Shown here: positions 34,661 through 43,072 of the stretch, one piece after another
How the letters are laid out: each line of letters starts with the position of its first letter
Numbering within the stretch: the first letter of the stretch is position 1
Assembly (NCBI GenBank): GCA_026692705.1
Contig: JAPLOE010000126.1
Coordinates: 1 to 43,072, forward strand
DNA length: 43,072 nucleotides
Reading direction: 5' to 3'
Source: Planctomycetota bacterium
Lineage (GTDB): Bacteria; Planctomycetota; UBA1135; GCA-002686595
Translations under genes and position numbers: made by a program
The notes under the pieces: generated by a model
Seen by the model: the letters and a program-made list of their open reading frames with translations, nothing else
Told to the model about the DNA's origin: nothing
Databases searched by the model: none

Positions 34661-36616
34661 TCACGGCCTCGACAGGTCGAGGTCGAAGCGCGTGGTGCGG
34701 CCGTCGCGGACCTCGCAGCTCCATTCGATCGGTTCGGAGCTTCGCATCCTCACCGTGCCCCCGGACTGGGGGTCAACTTCGCGGTCGAGCTGGAGCAGTT
34801 GCCACGGACCCGGCGTGAGGCCCTCGAAGCGATAGCGTCCACCGGGACCCGCGCGGTACGAGCGGCCGAAGCCGTCGCCTCGCGACAGGCCGAGGATCGT
34901 GCCTTCGGCGTCGGCGCCGCCGGGGAGCAGAACGACGCCTTCGATGACGCCGCCGCGGACGAGCGCGAAGTCGAGCGCGGTCGACTCTTCCGGGACGAGC
35001 GGTCCGAGCTCGGACGGTGCGAAGCCGGGAGCGACGGCGCGGATCCACTGAGGCTCGTCTCCGCTGAACGGCAGCTCGAAGCGGCCCTCGGCGTCGGTGG
35101 TCGTCCCCGCCTCCGGCCAACCATCGTGCACGGCGCGAAAGCCGTTGACGGTGAGCGAGACATTCCCAGCGTCGGGGAAGCGGCTCACGCGCGCGTCGGC
35201 GACCGGCTGCCCCTGCGCGAGCACGCGCCCACGCAGCAACTTCGCGCGTGCGAGCCGGATCTCGATCGTCGAACGGGCAACTGGGCGGTCGAGCTTCTCG
35301 CCTTCATGCCGGACGTAGCCCTTGGCCTCGATCTCGAGGCGCATGCGGCCGATCGGCACGGGCAGCGCGTAGCGACCTTCGCCGTCGGAATTCGGTCGAA
35401 TGAAGTTGGCGTTCCAGGCTCCGCTGCGCGACTCGCGATAGAGCTGCACGGTGCATTCGTTGACCGGCTCGCCGTCGGGCCCGCGCAGCACGAGATAGAA
35501 CGGCTCGTTGACGCCCAGTCGCAGTTCGAACTTGCCCGTGCCGAGCTTCACGTCGAGGAGCGTTGCTTCGGAGTAACGCTGTTCCGGATCGCTCGCGGAC
35601 AGGTCGTAGGTGGAGAATCCCGGCTCCACCGCGAGTCGGAAGCGCCCGTCCGGTCCGGTCATCGCTCCCTTCGATCCCATGCGGGCCAGATTGCGGTACG
35701 AGCAGGACACCAAGGCTCCATTGACCGGATCGCCGTCGGGCGAAAGCACGATGCCAGCGACGACTTCATCGTCACGCAGGCGCGGCACGGTGAGCACGAA
35801 CCCGTGCAGATCGACGCCTTCGATGAGCGTGAACTCGTCGCTCCACACCATGCGACTCTCGGCGCTCTTGGCCCACAGCCGCGCCTTGCCGACGGAAAGC
35901 CCCTCGAGATGGAAGTCGCCGTTCAGTCCGGATTCGACGAACAGGGAAGATTCGAGGTGGCTGTACTCACGCGAGGTGCGGCCGGCTTCGTCGGCGGGAT
36001 CGAACTCCCCCATCTCCGGCCCGACCCAGACAAACGGAACCGCCGCTCCCGTCTCGTCGACGGTGCGGCCGTACACGTCCACTCCGGGGCCGAGCACGAC
36101 GTCGCCGAGCGTGGTCGTCTGGCCTGCCGTCAGCACGCAGTCCAACGCCTTCGACTCGCAACCCTTGCGGCGCACGACGAGCTCCACGGACCAGCTCGAG
36201 CCCATTCCCGGCGGCTGCGAGAGAGCGAGCGTGATGCGACCCTCAGCGTCGCTCATCGCGCGACTGTGCATTCGTTTGGCGCCAAGGACGAGCACATCCG
36301 GCCACGGGTTGCCGAGCGTGTCGACGAACCGCGCAGTCAACGTCGCGGTCGGCCTGTCCGTGCTTTCGTCATGACCCGACGTCTCGCTCGTCGCGGGCTC
36401 GTTCGACGTCGGCGCGACGGCCGTTTCGGTGCGCTCGACGGATGGCTCGGCAAATTCCGGTGCTTTCGCGATCGACGCCGCGGCCTCGCGGGCATCGATT
36501 CTGGGCGTCGCGCTCTCCTCCACCGCCTGCGGCCGACGCGGGATTCCAGTCCAGATCGCGAAGCCCAGTCCAAACAGCGCGAGGACGATGAAGAGGTAGC
36601 GCAGCGGCTTGGGCAT
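34661..36616 (-). CDS. Membrane-anchored carboxypeptidase-regulatory-like protein, paralogue 1
   Basis: 651 residues; the ATG at 36614-36616 has a perfect AGGAGGAAA ribosome-binding site. One N-terminal membrane helix (MPKPLRYLFIVLALFGLGFA) is followed by a Pro/Glu/Thr-rich linker (to ~90) and a series of beta-sandwich domains with the CarboxypepD_reg pattern, e.g. LTARFVDTLGNPWPDVLVLG, TVDETGAAVPFVWVG, GIVLSPDGDPVNGALVSCSY, RGRVLAQGQPVADARVSRFP and VEGVVLLPGGADAEGT-like segments. The end is IEWSCEVRDGRTTRFDLDLS-RP. It is probably exposed in the periplasm or outside as a binding or structural protein; no catalytic motif is seen. Third in a tandem run; the most diverged of the three in its middle part. 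Confidence 0.85.
   Translation of the reverse strand: MPKPLRYLFIVLALFGLGFAIWTGIPRRPQAVEESATPRIDAREAAASIAKAPEFAEPSVERTETAVAPTSNEPATSETSGHDESTDRPTATLTARFVDTLGNPWPDVLVLGAKRMHSRAMSDAEGRITLALSQPPGMGSSWSVELVVRRKGCESKALDCVLTAGQTTTLGDVVLGPGVDVYGRTVDETGAAVPFVWVGPEMGEFDPADEAGRTSREYSHLESSLFVESGLNGDFHLEGLSVGKARLWAKSAESRMVWSDEFTLIEGVDLHGFVLTVPRLRDDEVVAGIVLSPDGDPVNGALVSCSYRNLARMGSKGAMTGPDGRFRLAVEPGFSTYDLSASDPEQRYSEATLLDVKLGTGKFELRLGVNEPFYLVLRGPDGEPVNECTVQLYRESRSGAWNANFIRPNSDGEGRYALPVPIGRMRLEIEAKGYVRHEGEKLDRPVARSTIEIRLARAKLLRGRVLAQGQPVADARVSRFPDAGNVSLTVNGFRAVHDGWPEAGTTTDAEGRFELPFSGDEPQWIRAVAPGFAPSELGPLVPEESTALDFALVRGGVIEGVVLLPGGADAEGTILGLSRGDGFGRSYRAGPGGRYRFEGLTPGPWQLLQLDREVDPQSGGTVRMRSSEPIEWSCEVRDGRTTRFDLDLSRP
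34663..34732. repeat. 70-bp near-identical repeat, copy 1 (3' end of paralogue 1)
   Basis: It corresponds to 36651-36720 and 38632-38701 with one or two base differences over 70 bp. It encodes the last 20 residues plus part of the stop region of each paralogue and contains the hairpin CCTCGA-cagg-TCGAGG directly beside the stop codon. Confidence 0.88.
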
Positions 36617-36648
36617 CGATTTCCTCCTGGGAGAGGAGTGCTCCGACT

Positions 36649-38595
36649 CTACGGCCTCGACAGGTCGAGGTCGAAGCGCGTGGTGCGGCCGTCGCGGACT
36701 TCGCAGCTCCATTCGATCGGCATCGAACCGCTCGTGATCCCGATCGTCGTCGAGTTGGGGCCAACCTCCTGCGCGCGCGGCAGGACTTGCCACGGACCGG
36801 GCGTGAGGCCTTCGAAGCGGAAGCGGCCGTCGGGACCTGTCCGCAGCGTGCGGACGAACCCGTCGCCACGTGAGACGCCGACGATCGTGCCTTCGGCGTC
36901 GGCGCCCTCGGGCAGGATCACCACACCTTCGATGACGCCGCCTCGCACGAGCTCGAACTCGAGCGCGGAAGGATCCTGAGGCGATACCGGGCCGATCTCG
37001 GCGGCCGCAAAGCCGGCGAGCTCCGCGCGGATCCACAGCTTTGCAACGCTATCGCAGCGCAACTCGAACGAGCCGTCGTCCGTCGTGGTGGTCTCGCAGC
37101 CGATCTCGGCGTCGTGCAGGCTGCGGAAGCCGTTCACCTCGAACACCGTGTCGCCGACGTCCTTGAAGCCGCGCAGTCTCGCGCCAGCTGCGGGCTTGCC
37201 ACCGGCGAGCACTCGCCCGCGCAGGAGGCGCAGGCGTTCGAGCCGGATCTCGAGCGTCGACCCGGGCGCGGGCGCGTCGAGTTCGGCGGTTTCATGCTTG
37301 CTGTAGCCCTGCGCCTCGATGGCGAGACGAAAGCGCGAGGAGGGAGCGGCGAGTTCGAAGCGCCCTTCACCCTTCGCCTTCACGACCACGTCCCGTTCCG
37401 ACCAGTGACCCTCGCGCACCTCGCGGTGGACCTTCACCGTGCACTCGGGGACGGGCTCGCCCTCGGGCCCGCGCAGGAGGATCGAGAACGGTGCCTCCTC
37501 TCCCAACCGCAGTTCGAGGTCGTGCGTGCCCGGCTTCACGCCGTGAACCGAGACTTCGGAATAGCGACTCTGCGGATCGGCCGCGCTCAGGTTGTAGGGT
37601 GCGTCGTCGGCCTGGACGACGATGCGGAAGCGGCCGTCGTTCTCGGTCGACTTCACGACCGAGCTGGACTGGCTCGCTGTCTCGAACGAGTACGAGAGCG
37701 TCGCGTTCGGCAGCGGCGAGCCATCGGGCGCAAGCACGATGCCGGTGATCAGGTCCTCGTGGCGCAAGGCCGGCACGAGCACCTCGAGCCCGCGCGCGTC
37801 GACTCCTTCGACGAGCGTGAACACGTCCGTCCAGCCGTAGCGCGTCTGGGCGCCGCAACCCCACACCCGCCACTCGCCCGGCGCGACGCCGCGGATCACG
37901 AACGTGCCGTCCTCGCCCGTCTCCACCGCGAGGTCCCTGCTGAACTGCGGTGCGCCCCGCCGGCGTGTCGGTCCGTCGTCGACGAGCTCCCGCTCGACGC
38001 CCGCGAGACCCACTTTCGCGCGGATTCCGCGCTGATTCTCGTCGATCGCACGGCCATGGACGTCGACACCTGGGCCGAGCACGACGTCGCCGAGTTTCGT
38101 CACCGTCGAGACCGTGAGCGTGCAACGCAGGACTTTCGTCGCGCAGGTTGCCCGGCGTGCGATGAGCCTGCCGGACCACGTCACGTCTGCGGCCTGCAGG
38201 GGGAAGTCGAGCGCCACGTTTCCAGTCGCGTCGCTGGTGGCAGACACGGCTTCGCGCTGGGGATCGAACAGGAGCACGCCCGGCCAGGGGTTGCCGAGCG
38301 TATCGACAAATCGCGCCGTGAGGCTCGCAACGCCGACCTTCGGGCTTTCGGGCGCCGCAGCCGGCGCTGGGTCCACACTCGGCGCGTTGGATTGCGGTGT
38401 GGTTTCGATGCGCTCGCCTCCGGCCGCGGAAAACTCCGGCGGATTCTCACGATCCGCCGTGGCCTCGGGCGCGATCGCCTGCGGTGCGGCGCCATCTTCC
38501 GCGGCCCGCGGGGCGCGAGTGAGTCCGTTCCAAGCCACAAATGCGAGCGCGACGAGCGCGATCACGATCAGGCAGTACCGCAGCGCTCTCGGCAT
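36649..38595 (-). CDS. Membrane-anchored carboxypeptidase-regulatory-like protein, paralogue 2
   Basis: 648 residues, preceded by a GGAGGA ribosome-binding site. Its anchor (MPRALRYCLIVIALVALAFV) differs from those of paralogues 1 and 3. Domain order is as in its neighbours: LTARFVDTLGNPWPGVLLFD, LGDVVLGPGVDVHGRAIDEN, ITGIVLAPDGSPLPNATLSY, GRVLAGGKPAAGARLRGFKD and IEGVVILPEGADAEGTIVGV, ending with the same WSCEVRDGRTTRFDLDLSRP. Many segments are closer to paralogue 3 than to paralogue 1 (for instance GSPLPNATLSYSF), suggesting two rounds of duplication. It starts 34 nt after the stop of paralogue 3. Confidence 0.85.
   Translation of the reverse strand: MPRALRYCLIVIALVALAFVAWNGLTRAPRAAEDGAAPQAIAPEATADRENPPEFSAAGGERIETTPQSNAPSVDPAPAAAPESPKVGVASLTARFVDTLGNPWPGVLLFDPQREAVSATSDATGNVALDFPLQAADVTWSGRLIARRATCATKVLRCTLTVSTVTKLGDVVLGPGVDVHGRAIDENQRGIRAKVGLAGVERELVDDGPTRRRGAPQFSRDLAVETGEDGTFVIRGVAPGEWRVWGCGAQTRYGWTDVFTLVEGVDARGLEVLVPALRHEDLITGIVLAPDGSPLPNATLSYSFETASQSSSVVKSTENDGRFRIVVQADDAPYNLSAADPQSRYSEVSVHGVKPGTHDLELRLGEEAPFSILLRGPEGEPVPECTVKVHREVREGHWSERDVVVKAKGEGRFELAAPSSRFRLAIEAQGYSKHETAELDAPAPGSTLEIRLERLRLLRGRVLAGGKPAAGARLRGFKDVGDTVFEVNGFRSLHDAEIGCETTTTDDGSFELRCDSVAKLWIRAELAGFAAAEIGPVSPQDPSALEFELVRGGVIEGVVILPEGADAEGTIVGVSRGDGFVRTLRTGPDGRFRFEGLTPGPWQVLPRAQEVGPNSTTIGITSGSMPIEWSCEVRDGRTTRFDLDLSRP
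36651..36720. repeat. 70-bp near-identical repeat, copy 2 (3' end of paralogue 2)
   Basis: It differs from copy 1 at one base and from copy 3 at one base. The flanking coding sequence is much less similar. Confidence 0.88.
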
Positions 38596-38629
38596 CGAAC
38601 GTCCTCCGGGAAGAGGGGGCGTCCCAACT

Positions 38630-40594
38630 CTACGGCCTCGACAGGTCGAGGTCGAAGCGCGTGGTGCGGCCGTCGCGGACTTCGCAGTTCCATTCGATCG
38701 GCGTGGTGCCGGTCGACATGGTCGAGGAGGTCGATTGCGGATCGATTTCCTGCGTGCGGTGGAGCACTTGCCACGGGCCGGGGGCGAGGCCCTCGAAGCG
38801 GAAGCGGCCGCCGGCGCCGGCGCGCTGCGTGCGCGGGAAGCCGTCGCCGCGCGAGATGCCGACGATCGTGCCTTCGGGGTCGGCGCCTGCGGGCAGGATC
38901 ACGACGCCTTCGATGGCGCCGCCGCGCACGAGGTCGAAGGCGAGCGCGGGCGAGCTCGCGGGCGCGACGGGACCGGTCTCGGCGGCGGCGAAGCCCGTGA
39001 GCTCGGCCCGGATCCACATCAGGCCTTCGTCGTTGTACGGGAGCTCGAACGTGCCGTCGTCCTTGGTGCTCGTGGTGCAGTCGCCCCAGGCGTGGTGCAT
39101 GCAGCGGAAGCCGTTGACCATCAGCGTCGAGTCGCCGACGTCCTTGAAGCCGCGCACCTTGGCGCCGGCCGCGGGCTTGCCGTCGGCGAGCACGCGACCG
39201 CGCAGGAATTGCGGCCGTTCGAGCCGGATCTCGAGCGTCGAGCCCGGCGCGGGCGGCTCGAGCTCGGCGGTCTGGTGCTTGCGGTAACCCGTGGCCTCGA
39301 TCTCGAGCCGGAAGCGTGACGACGGCGCGATGAGCTCGAAACGCCCTTCGCCCTTCGACTTCGGCTCGGTGGAACTGCCCGACCAGTGGCCTTCGCGCAC
39401 CTCGCGATGGAGCGTCAGCGTGCATTCGTCGACGGGCTCACCCGCCGGACCGCGCAGCAGGAGCGCGAACGGCGCGTGCTCACCGAGCCGCAGCTCGATG
39501 TCGAGCGTGCCCGGCTTCACGCCGCGTTGTGTCGCCTCGGAATAGCGGCCTTCCGGATCGGCTGCGCTGAGGTCGAAGGGGGCCTGGTCGTCGTCGATCA
39601 CGATGCGGAAGCGCCCATCGTTGCCAGCCGAGCGCGTGGTCGAGCTCGACATGGTCTCGGTCGCGAACGAATACGAGAGCGTCGCGTTCGGGAGCGGCGT
39701 GCCATCGGGCGTGAGCACGATGCCGGTGATCATGTCGCTGCCCCGCATCGCGGGCACGACGAGCTCGATCCCGCGCGCGTCGGCGCCCTCGACGAGCGTG
39801 AACTTGTCGGTCCAGCCAAAGCGAGTGCCTTCGCCTTGCCCCCAGAGGCGCCACTCGCCGGGCGCGACGCCGCTCAACACGAACGCTCCGTCTTCCGCGG
39901 AGTCGACGACGCCCCTTCTGTCGAAGTCCGACCCGCCCTGCCGACGCGTCGGCCCGTCGTCGACGAGCTCCTGCACGGCGATCGCAAGACCCACTTTCGC
40001 CTTGATTCCTCGGCGTTTTTCGTCGACCGCGCGGCCGTGGACGTCGACGCCGGGTCCGAGCACGACATCGCCGAGCTGCGTCGTCGTCGCGACGGTCAGG
40101 GTGCAGCGCACGTTCTTCGTGGCGCAGCCCGCGCGGCGCGCGACGAACTCGCCCGACCAGCTGGCCTCGCTCGAGTACTGGGGCACATCCAGCGTGATGC
40201 GCCCGGTGGCGTCGCTCTTGGTCGCGATCTCCGGATTGTCGGGATCGAGCACGTCGACGCCCGGCCACGGAGTGCCGAGCGCGTCGACGAAACGTGCGGT
40301 GAGCTTGCCGAACTCCACCTTCCGCGCCTGGTCGCGCTCGAGGCCCGGCACGGGATTGACGTGCGCGTTGTCGGGCGTGGTCGAGCTCGGCTCCGGCGCC
40401 GTCTCGGTGCGCTCGACGGGTTGTTCGGTGTAGCTGCGGATCGTCCTCGTCTCGGTGACGACCTCGGGCCCGGCAGCCTGCGGCGCCGCGCTTTCCTCCG
40501 CAGCCTGCGGCCGGCGCGGAATTCCGGTCCAGATCGCGAAGGCGAGGCCGAACAGCGCGAGCACGATGAAGAAGTAACGCAGCGGCTTGGGCAT
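38630..40594 (-). CDS. Membrane-anchored carboxypeptidase-regulatory-like protein, paralogue 3
   Basis: 654 residues from the ATG at 40592-40594 (MPKPLRYFFIVLALFGLAFA), chosen because it matches the starts of both paralogues; an upstream ATG at 40627 would lie inside the preceding gene. Single N-terminal membrane helix, linker, then repeated beta-domains: LTARFVDALGTPWPGVDVLD, GVDVHGRAVDEKRRGIKAKV, ITGIVLTPDGTPLPNATLSY, GRVLADGKPAAGAKVRGFKD and IEGVVILPAGADPEGTIVGI. It has WNCEVRDG where the others have WSCEVRDG. First of the three to be transcribed, 13 nt after the ACT-domain gene, so all four may be one operon. Confidence 0.85.
   Translation of the reverse strand: MPKPLRYFFIVLALFGLAFAIWTGIPRRPQAAEESAAPQAAGPEVVTETRTIRSYTEQPVERTETAPEPSSTTPDNAHVNPVPGLERDQARKVEFGKLTARFVDALGTPWPGVDVLDPDNPEIATKSDATGRITLDVPQYSSEASWSGEFVARRAGCATKNVRCTLTVATTTQLGDVVLGPGVDVHGRAVDEKRRGIKAKVGLAIAVQELVDDGPTRRQGGSDFDRRGVVDSAEDGAFVLSGVAPGEWRLWGQGEGTRFGWTDKFTLVEGADARGIELVVPAMRGSDMITGIVLTPDGTPLPNATLSYSFATETMSSSTTRSAGNDGRFRIVIDDDQAPFDLSAADPEGRYSEATQRGVKPGTLDIELRLGEHAPFALLLRGPAGEPVDECTLTLHREVREGHWSGSSTEPKSKGEGRFELIAPSSRFRLEIEATGYRKHQTAELEPPAPGSTLEIRLERPQFLRGRVLADGKPAAGAKVRGFKDVGDSTLMVNGFRCMHHAWGDCTTSTKDDGTFELPYNDEGLMWIRAELTGFAAAETGPVAPASSPALAFDLVRGGAIEGVVILPAGADPEGTIVGISRGDGFPRTQRAGAGGRFRFEGLAPGPWQVLHRTQEIDPQSTSSTMSTGTTPIEWNCEVRDGRTTRFDLDLSRP
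38632..38701. repeat. 70-bp near-identical repeat, copy 3 (3' end of paralogue 3)
   Basis: Same element as copies 1 and 2. The only differences are synonymous or the Ser-to-Asn change in the penultimate conserved block. Confidence 0.88.
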
Positions 40595-40607: not shown

Positions 40608-41039
40608 TCAGGAGCGGGGAAGCTCACCCTCGATTTTGTGGCCTTCGGCCTCGAGCGCGGCCTTCGCGAGCGCGAACTGCTCGGCCCGCACGATCAGCCA
40701 GTCCGTGTCGTAGGTCGAGATCACGAACACGCTGACCTTGGCGCGCGCGAGCGCTCCGCACAGCGCGGCGAGCACGCCGATCGTCGTCATCTCGACGACA
40801 CCGACGATGCCGAAGGCGACACGCTCGCGCTCGTGCACGACTCCGGGCGGCACGTGCGCCTGCGAGCAGACCACCGAGACCTCGTCGGCGGTGCGCGCAA
40901 GGTTCACGAAGCCGCCGCGCGCCCAGTCGGGGAAGGCGGCGGATCGGTCGAGTCGCGCGATGGCGAGCCGCTCGGGATGGACGCGAAAGTGGAAGGCGGT
41001 CACGGGGCGCTCCGGGTAGGGCCGCGACGGATCGTGCAT
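40608..41039 (-). CDS. ACT-domain (CASTOR/ACT_7-like) protein
   Basis: 143 residues from the ATG at 41037-41039 (MHDPSRPYPERPVTAFHFRV). The N-terminal half carries LAIARLDRSAAFPDWARGGF with TADEVSVVCSQAHVP, and the C-terminal half the ACT segment VVEMTTIGVLAALCGALARA then KVSVFVISTYDTDWLIVRAE, typical of small stand-alone 'ACT domain-containing' proteins related to the amino-acid sensor CASTOR and aspartate-kinase-like ACT_7 domains. It probably binds an amino acid or other small ligand. Divergent from pduS over 87 bp; the paralogue cluster follows 13 nt downstream. Confidence 0.85.
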   Translation of the reverse strand: MHDPSRPYPERPVTAFHFRVHPERLAIARLDRSAAFPDWARGGFVNLARTADEVSVVCSQAHVPPGVVHERERVAFGIVGVVEMTTIGVLAALCGALARAKVSVFVISTYDTDWLIVRAEQFALAKAALEAEGHKIEGELPRS

Positions 41040-41126
41040 CGCGCGGGCCCGGGCCACAAGCTCGCGCCCCACGACGATCCGCTCCGGGCGCCCGGGTGGC
41101 CCGCGGCGTATACTCCCGCCCCCACC

Positions 41127-42446
41127 ATGCCGGCCGTCCAGTCCAACCTCATCGAGCGCGCCCGTGCGAACGGCATCGTCGGAGCCGGCGGGGCGGGCTT
41201 TCCGCTCTACAAGAAGCTCGACGCCACCGCCGACACGGTGATCCTCAACGCCGCCGAGTGCGAGCCCCTGCTCCACAAGGACAAGGAGATCCTGCGCCAC
41301 GACATGGGCGGGGTGCTGCGCGGGTTGCGCACGGTGATGACGCAGGTGCGCGCGAGCCGCGGCATCGTCGGCATCAAGGACAAGTACAAGGACCTGATCG
41401 CGGAGCTGCGCGTCGCGGGAGCGCCGCTGGGCATCGAAGTGTTCGAGCTCGGCGACTACTACCCGGCCGGCGACGAGTTCATCACGGTCTACGAGGCCAC
41501 GGGCCGCGTGATCCCGCCCGGCGGCATCCCGCTCGATGTCGGGTGCCTCGTGTGCAACGTCGAGACCGTGCTCAACCTCGACCGCGACCGCCCGGTGACG
41601 CGCAAGTTCTTCACGATCGCCGCCGACGTGCCCAATCCGGTCACGGTGTGCGCTCCGATCGGCGCGAAGTTCGGCGACGTGCTGCGCGCGGTCGGCGCGG
41701 ACCCCACGAAGATCGGGCACGTGCTGGTCGGCGGCGTGATGATGGGCCGCAACATGAAGAGCTGGGACGAGCCGGTCACGCGCACGACCGGCGGCCTCCT
41801 GTGCTTCCCCAACGAACACGTGCTGCAGCGCAAGTACCAGACCGAGTCGAAGGCGCGCAGCCTGATCGGCAAGTCGGCCTGCGACCAGTGCAGCTTCTGC
41901 ACCGAGATGTGCCCGCGCTACCTGATCGGGCACCCCGTCGAGCCGCACATGGCGATGCGGGGACTCGGCTTCAACATGGTCGGCGAGTCGCTGATGCTCT
42001 CCAGCCAGTTCTGCTGCGAGTGCAACCTGTGCTCGCTGTACGCCTGCCCCGAGGACCTGTTCCCCAAGGACGCCTGCGCGGACAACAAGGTGATCCTGCG
42101 GCAGAAGGGCATGAACCACCCGTCCAAGGGCCGCACGGACCTCAAGGCGCACAGCATGCAGGAGTACCGGCACGTGCCGGTGGCGAGCCTGATCAAGAAG
42201 CTCGGGCTGTCGGGCTACCAGAACAAGGGACCGCTGGTCGAGGTCGACTGGCGCCTCGACGAGGTCCGCATTCCGCTCAAGCAGCACATCGGCTCGCCCG
42301 CGGTCTGCGCGGTCAAGGTGGGCCAGCGCGTGCGCGAGGGCGACGTGATCGGCAGCGCGCCCGAGGGCCTCGGCGTGCCCGTGCACGCGTCGATCGACGG
42401 CGTGGTGGCGGCGACGGGCGACGAGATCGTGATCCGGAGGAGCTGA
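41127..42446 (+). CDS. pduS: PduS-like microcompartment electron-transfer flavoprotein (RnfC family)
   Basis: 439 residues, close to the ~450 of PduS. In Pdu compartments PduS is a flavin/Fe-S NADH-dependent reductase that recycles cobalamin or electrons. N-terminal nucleotide/flavin-binding motif GAGGAGFP at 19-26 and NAAECEP at 41-47; a central SLBB-like part (~165-215); two ferredoxin-like clusters C252-x2-C255-x2-C258-x3-C262 and C296-x2-C299-x2-C302-x4-C307; and a C-terminal RnfC-type barrel-sandwich segment (PLKQHIGSPAVCAVKVGQRV onwards). The start is the ATG at 41127, with a TATACT -10-like element at 41109-41114. The next gene overlaps its stop by one base and encodes the matching shell protein. 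Confidence 0.93.
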   Translation: MPAVQSNLIERARANGIVGAGGAGFPLYKKLDATADTVILNAAECEPLLHKDKEILRHDMGGVLRGLRTVMTQVRASRGIVGIKDKYKDLIAELRVAGAPLGIEVFELGDYYPAGDEFITVYEATGRVIPPGGIPLDVGCLVCNVETVLNLDRDRPVTRKFFTIAADVPNPVTVCAPIGAKFGDVLRAVGADPTKIGHVLVGGVMMGRNMKSWDEPVTRTTGGLLCFPNEHVLQRKYQTESKARSLIGKSACDQCSFCTEMCPRYLIGHPVEPHMAMRGLGFNMVGESLMLSSQFCCECNLCSLYACPEDLFPKDACADNKVILRQKGMNHPSKGRTDLKAHSMQEYRHVPVASLIKKLGLSGYQNKGPLVEVDWRLDEVRIPLKQHIGSPAVCAVKVGQRVREGDVIGSAPEGLGVPVHASIDGVVAATGDEIVIRRS

Positions 42447-43009
42447 TGGGCAAGCGAATGGAAGCGCTCGGCATGGTCGAGCTGTCGTCGATCGCGGTCG
42501 CGTACCTGGTCGAGGACGCGATGCTGAAGGCGAGCGAAGTCGAGCTGCTCGTGGCGCGCACGATCTGCTCGGGCAAGTACATCGTGATGGTCGGCGGTCC
42601 CGTCGCGGCGGTCGAAGCGAGCCTGCGCGCGGGCCGCGAGGCCTCGCGCGAGGCGCTGATCGACGAGCTCTTCATCCCCAACATCGACGAGCGCGTGTTC
42701 CCCGCGATCACCGGCAGCGTCGCGCTGAAGGACAAGGACAAGGACGCGCTCGGCATCCTCGAGGCCTTCTCGGTCACGTCGATCATCGAAGGCGCCGACG
42801 CTGCGGTGAAGGCCGCCGACGTCACGCTCTTCCGCATCCACGTCGCCATGGCGATCGGTGGCAAGGGCTTCCTGCTGCTGACCGGCGAGGTCTCGGATGT
42901 CACCGCCGCGATCGAGGCCGGCGCGAAGCAGATCGGCCGCCGCGGCCTGCTCGTCAGCAAGGTCGTGATCCCGCGCCCCGACGAGCGGCTCTTCAAGGAA
43001 ACGCTCTAG
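42446..43009 (+). CDS. pduT: PduT-like tandem BMC-domain shell protein with Fe-S cysteine
   Basis: 187 residues: two fused BMC domains (~6-92 and ~98-184), i.e. a BMC-T trimer subunit. Domain 1 begins ALGMVELSSIAVAYLVEDAM, domain 2 ALGILEAFSVTSIIEGADAA. The motif VARTICSGKYIVMVGG places Cys41 where PduT has the cysteine (TICPGK) that holds a [4Fe-4S] cluster in the trimer pore, so this protein should relay electrons across a shell. ATG overlaps the pduS stop (TGATG), with GGAGGAG just upstream. The PduS-PduT pair is known to interact. No BMC-H or BMC-P gene is in the window; they would have to be to the right or elsewhere. Confidence 0.94.
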   Translation: MGKRMEALGMVELSSIAVAYLVEDAMLKASEVELLVARTICSGKYIVMVGGPVAAVEASLRAGREASREALIDELFIPNIDERVFPAITGSVALKDKDKDALGILEAFSVTSIIEGADAAVKAADVTLFRIHVAMAIGGKGFLLLTGEVSDVTAAIEAGAKQIGRRGLLVSKVVIPRPDERLFKETL

Positions 43010-43022
43010 CAGCTCGCGCGAA

Positions 43023-43072
43023 ACCGAGCGGAATACCGAGCCAGCGAAAAATACCGAGCCAGAGCAATTTTT
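43023..43072. repeat. Short direct repeats at the right edge
   Basis: ATACCGAGCCAG occurs at 43033-43044 and again at 43051-43062 (18-bp period), with a degenerate AACCGAGCG at 43022-43030, ending in AATTTTT. It sits directly after pduT and is much more AT-rich than the rest. It may be the start of a terminator or of a repeat array cut by the window edge. Confidence 0.5.

Follow-up and report, generated by a model that had tools for sequence, protein, structure and literature searches.

The contig analysed here, from an uncultured Planctomycetota bacterium, carries pduS and pduT as a closed, stand-alone two-gene satellite locus. We consider the pair probably an optional redox port that serves, from a satellite position, a microcompartment whose shell genes lie on other contigs; it would export electrons and regenerate NAD+ inside the shell. 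The window, 43,072 bases long, is all of contig C126 of a draft genome (G000, 348 contigs) whose completeness of 89% means that a gene missed in it alone is little proof of absence. pduS (41,127-42,446, plus strand, 439 aa) encodes a predicted NADH-dependent flavin and two-[4Fe-4S] oxidoreductase, and pduT (42,446-43,009, plus strand, 187 aa) a predicted tandem-BMC (BMC-T) shell trimer subunit. The two genes overlap by one base, the pduT start lying inside the pduS stop codon (TGATG), and a GGAGGAG ribosome site for pduT is found within the 3' end of pduS.

Three Pfam domains were recognised in PduS: Complex1_51K (1e-38), Fer4_17 (9.5e-12) and, at the C-terminus, RnfC_N (8.4e-14). Its identity to annotated Salmonella PduS is 40% over 94% coverage. 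Residues 19-24 read GAGGAG, a GxGxxG-type flavin motif, and two tetracysteine motifs follow (C252xxC255xxC258xxxC262 and C296xxC299xxC302xxxxC307), spaced exactly as the cluster motifs of Citrobacter PduS (C264/267/270/274 and C309/312/315/320; PMC2982820). An alignment of the ten orthologous pairs showed no variation in any of the Fe-S or flavin motifs. PduS is predicted to bind FMN and two [4Fe-4S] clusters and to oxidise NADH. The domain order of Complex1_51K, [4Fe-4S] dicluster and C-terminal RnfC_N is present, whereas RnfC carries RnfC_N at its N-terminus; RnfC and PrdC were excluded as identities of the gene by this order and by scores under cut-off. SLBB, a fourth PduS domain named in PMC6325248, had no Pfam match in the window protein.

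PduT contains two BMC domains (Pfam 1.2e-43). The structures nearest to it by sequence are the PduT entries 3pac and 3n79, and its AlphaFold model superposes on them with TM scores of 0.85-0.86. Its only cysteine, Cys41, lies in TICSGKY and aligns with the cluster-binding pore cysteine, where C41-S-G-K-Y matches the pore motif C-P/S/A-G-K/R/S-Y/F. This cysteine is kept in all ten orthologous PduTs and was found in 78 of 78 PduS-linked PduTs that were read, and one [4Fe-4S] cluster per trimer is predicted in the pore. PduT is not a strict equivalog of the NCBIfam model TIGR02526, scoring 104.6 against a cut-off of 250.3 bits. The initial annotation had described a PduS with two Fe-S clusters and a flavin motif, a PduT with pore Cys41, and the two together as the redox pair of a microcompartment; its coordinates were exact, the motifs and the pore cysteine were borne out, and the pairing gained support from a genome that encodes a microcompartment. 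A BMC-T on contig C78, tried as a second PduT, was ruled out by 40% identity and a missing pore cysteine (TPVQPGKY).

We found a self-contained unit where the initial annotation had seen the opening of an operon running to the right edge. Position 43,072 is a contig end, 63 bases beyond the pduT stop, and falls within a dispersed palindromic repeat that starts at 43,034 (43,034-43,072, no strand, TACCGAGCCAGAGCAATTTTT). Contigs C25, C70, C175, C253, C294 and C347 carry this repeat at or close to their ends as well. An intact copy, directly 5' of pduS in a relative (G004, L065:12645-12745), measures 101 bases and is a near-perfect palindrome whose arms are 49 bases long, a structure that would break short-read assembly and may explain why the contig stops here. 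The repeat family (TACCGAGCCAGAGC...) is palindromic, about 100 bases long and MITE- or REP-like. Flanks of the pair were read in nine relatives, with genes predicted by a purpose-written simple codon-usage caller. The downstream gene is convergent in eight of them (the six other genus members, G017 and G031), and G020 has just a doubtful 67-aa same-strand frame there. None of these nine flanks contained shell, cargo or other BMC genes near the pair, nor any pdu gene besides S and T. The short distance to the contig end would fit the pair being the front of a new microcompartment operon severed by the assembly. That reading is very improbable given the convergent neighbours, the repeat at the edge and the location of the shell genes on other contigs in 10/10 pair-carrying genomes.

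On the 5' side, genus members share a divergent ACT-domain gene (40,608-41,003, minus strand; Pfam ACT_7 1.5e-14, synteny), a conserved neighbour outside the module. By the gene calls, the intergenic region between it and pduS spans 41,004-41,126 (no strand) and encloses a promoter -10-like box, GTATACTC (TATACT; 41,108-41,115, plus strand), 18 nt 5' of the pduS start. GTATACTC has a single copy in the window, where chance would give 0.01. In seven of the ten pair-carrying genomes, the window among them, TATACT is found 18-24 nt 5' of the pduS start; one more genome has it at 36 nt, G004 has TATTCT in its place, at the end of the inserted repeat, and G017 has TATCCT. Nothing resembling a ribosome site stands in front of pduS, so its transcript may be nearly leaderless. 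Further left, 34,661-40,594 (minus strand) holds a tandem array of three paralogues, each about 650 aa long with a signal-like N-terminus; G004 has five at the same place.

The genome was checked for BMC shell genes, whose absence would have spoken against a compartment, and yielded six BMC-domain and five EutN/CcmL-domain matches. Contig C78 carries, after a gene reading as RodA-like (cell shape), a BMC-H, a CoA-acylating-type aldehyde dehydrogenase, another BMC-H, a 216-aa protein, two BMC-P and a BMC-T. Three further BMC-P genes accompany a class II aldolase (PF00596, 8.9e-42) on contig C265. The aldehyde dehydrogenase is nearest to the acetylating enzyme 5j78 (3.6e-143) and also to 3k9d. 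The 216-aa protein (L015:3923-4573) falls under the Pfam cut-off, but its predicted structure (pLDDT 90.9) resembles the double trimers of CcmP and Haliangium (TM score 0.90, 46% identity), and by this modelled fold it is a double BMC-T of the CcmP/CsoS1D kind. In a set of 61 related genomes, 37 of the 39 microcompartment-positive ones had the aldolase, as did 0 of the 22 negative ones. PduL was undetected in all 61, with positive controls detected. The main-locus aldehyde dehydrogenase (L015:1609-3531) has a long low-complexity linker followed by a helix-like stretch and a conserved cysteine-rich tail (CPLGPCKGC...TGAC); nearly all family members show this extension, which may be an encapsulation peptide that carries a metal site. 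In many family members the shell genes are also followed by genes for an ACT-domain and a DUF711 protein (L073:11309-13220 and relatives).

The initial annotation had suggested a new compartment type, and this suggestion is weakened by the aldolase, the CoA-acylating-type aldehyde dehydrogenase, the pentamer triplet, the CcmP-like double trimer and the fragmented loci, which together liken the compartment to described types. The likeness lies in a class II aldolase (PF00596), as in PVM and ACI, a BMC-P triplet, a CcmP-like double trimer, as in HO and MIC3, and genome-scattered loci, as in FRAG, which includes Planctomycetes (PMC4207490, PMC8217296). The PVM combination of a class II aldolase with BMC-P paralogues is present; a PVM-type core gathering PduL, acetate kinase and lactate/malate dehydrogenase in one locus is not, as PduL was undetected and the loci are scattered. 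The compartment differs from all five types in this undetected PduL, in a shell locus placed after a RodA-like gene and in pduS-pduT forming a separate accessory locus. It resembles PVM, ACI, HO, MIC3 and FRAG, and assignment to any one of them would take the type-specific HMMs of PMC8217296. The pair itself is contiguous, has too few shell genes and belongs to a genome with its main locus elsewhere, like satellite loci already described (PMC4207490, PMC8217296). Its non-shell gene makes it 'satellite-like' under the definitions of PMC4207490, and PMC8217296 would class it as a 'satellite'.

Of the 37 family genomes, 10 carry both pduS and a cysteine-bearing pduT, never one without the other. 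Carriers comprise all seven genus members and three other genera, and 26 further microcompartment-positive members have neither gene. A strict cut-off applied to 294 genomes from across the phylum left 9 with PduS. The PduS phylogeny, which the initial annotation had called for, placed the family sequences in one clade (SH-aLRT 100, in a quick tree with some long branches). The pair is patchily distributed in the family. Mapped on an aldehyde dehydrogenase tree built without G002, G003 and G004, presence and absence of the pair require four changes. Given these changes and the single PduS clade, the patchiness may reflect either old presence followed by losses or exchange within the family. 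It could also suit a decaying remnant, or a cytosolic pair belonging to no compartment, and a 5'-truncated second pduT in G001 (L064:8824-9483), an orphan with no adjoining pduS, fits such an account. We regard this explanation as distinctly improbable, since the main copy is intact, the motifs are kept in 10/10 pairs and the promoter-like box is conserved. Moreover, among 23 genomes sampled from other loci with no visible shell gene by pduS, all had BMC domains and 22 had BMC genes clearly beyond PduT. The G001 copy keeps its pore cysteine and is probably a decaying duplicate.

A satellite redox port would work as follows. PduT would build a trimeric shell tile whose three Cys41 residues hold one [4Fe-4S] cluster in the pore, and PduS would dock on it. 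An encapsulated CoA-acylating aldehyde dehydrogenase, expected from its family to form NADH, would do so inside the shell; PduS would take the electrons of NADH through FMN and its two clusters to the PduT cluster, which would deliver them to a cytosolic acceptor outside the shell, with NAD+ regenerated inside. Here we infer cofactor binding, shell incorporation, electron direction, acceptor and substrate. The Citrobacter PduS is reduced by NADH at its flavin and at a cluster and binds PduT; the potentials, -150 mV for the PduS flavin and +99 mV for PduT, run outward, on which grounds the authors proposed the passage of electrons out (PMC2982820). With PduL undetected, a glycyl radical enzyme (PF02901) found in none of the ten pair-carrying genomes (control detected) and an aldehyde dehydrogenase of an NADH-forming family, export with NAD+ regeneration is the most economical reading. 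The 26 microcompartment-positive members without the pair show that the core pathway can run in its absence and that they must recycle NAD+ in some other way.

Two other roles were considered for the pair. In the first, proposed for glycyl-radical compartments, electrons are carried inward to supply an encapsulated reductase or radical enzyme. Glycyl-radical compartments often have PduS-PduT pairs (PMC6325248), and the reaction could be reversible, so that PduS could also work inward. GRM1b, GRM3 and GRM5 resemble our case in having adjacent pduS-pduT without a B12 enzyme (PMC6325248), GRM5 also in its class II aldolase (PMC4207490), but the family's pair lies outside the main locus and its carriers lack the glycyl radical enzyme, as detailed above. 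As the Citrobacter potentials favour outward flow as well, we consider import unlikely. In the second, PduS, anchored by PduT, would reduce corrin (cobalamin) to serve a B12-dependent enzyme, the situation of 1,2-propanediol compartments. Cobalamin is reduced by Citrobacter PduS (PMC2982820), and the identity of the window protein to Salmonella PduS accords with such a function. The PDU systems of Citrobacter and Salmonella share the same two genes, domain order, cysteine spacing and pore cysteine, but their pair is embedded in a large pdu operon that also encodes a B12 diol dehydratase, whereas the window pair stands alone and its aldolase-type compartment is elsewhere. The compartment is tracked by the aldolase rather than by a dehydratase, and no further pdu gene is near the pair. 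The diol dehydratase large subunit (PF02286) gave 0/61 matches, a weak argument as the control genomes gave none either. Taken together, these points make corrin reduction improbable, and electron export remains our preferred role for the pair.

We tentatively extend electron export to a general, and at present speculative, picture of a modular port, exchangeable or repeatedly lost and independent of both B12 and glycyl radicals, in which aldolase compartments without PduL export electrons in place of NAD+ recycling by an internal dehydrogenase. The parts and satellite loci as such are known; in the openly licensed literature we found no description of pduS-pduT as a solitary, optional satellite that accompanies an aldolase compartment lacking PduL. 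The role of PduS and PduT outside B12 systems is an open question (PMC6325248), and a pair that is genetically separate, and present or absent among close relatives with the same compartment, offers a clean natural comparison for trans-shell electron transfer. It is also a small two-gene part for engineering an electron port across a protein shell.

Finally, the arrangement was surveyed in 80 species-collection loci, a stand-alone call needing at least 4 kb clear on each side and loci with less being kept out of that class. By this rule 21 pairs were stand-alone, 26 shell-linked and 33 not judgeable. The stand-alone pairs were from Planctomycetota (17), Cloacimonadota (2), Omnitrophota (1) and one unplaced lineage; four of the 21 fall inside the family clade, and some of these four are copies of genomes already counted. 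Acidobacteriota contributed 19 of the 26 shell-linked loci. For example, L108, L110, L121 and others from that phylum encode the pair with PduS 48-52% identical to ours and with an aldolase, an aldehyde dehydrogenase and pentamers nearby, so that the pair is linked to the shell locus there and unlinked in the Planctomycetota family. Similarly, L171 (candidate division KSB1) and L176 (Aminicenantes) unite the pduS-pduT pair with shell, aldehyde dehydrogenase and aldolase genes in one locus, possibly an unsplit form of the scattered loci.
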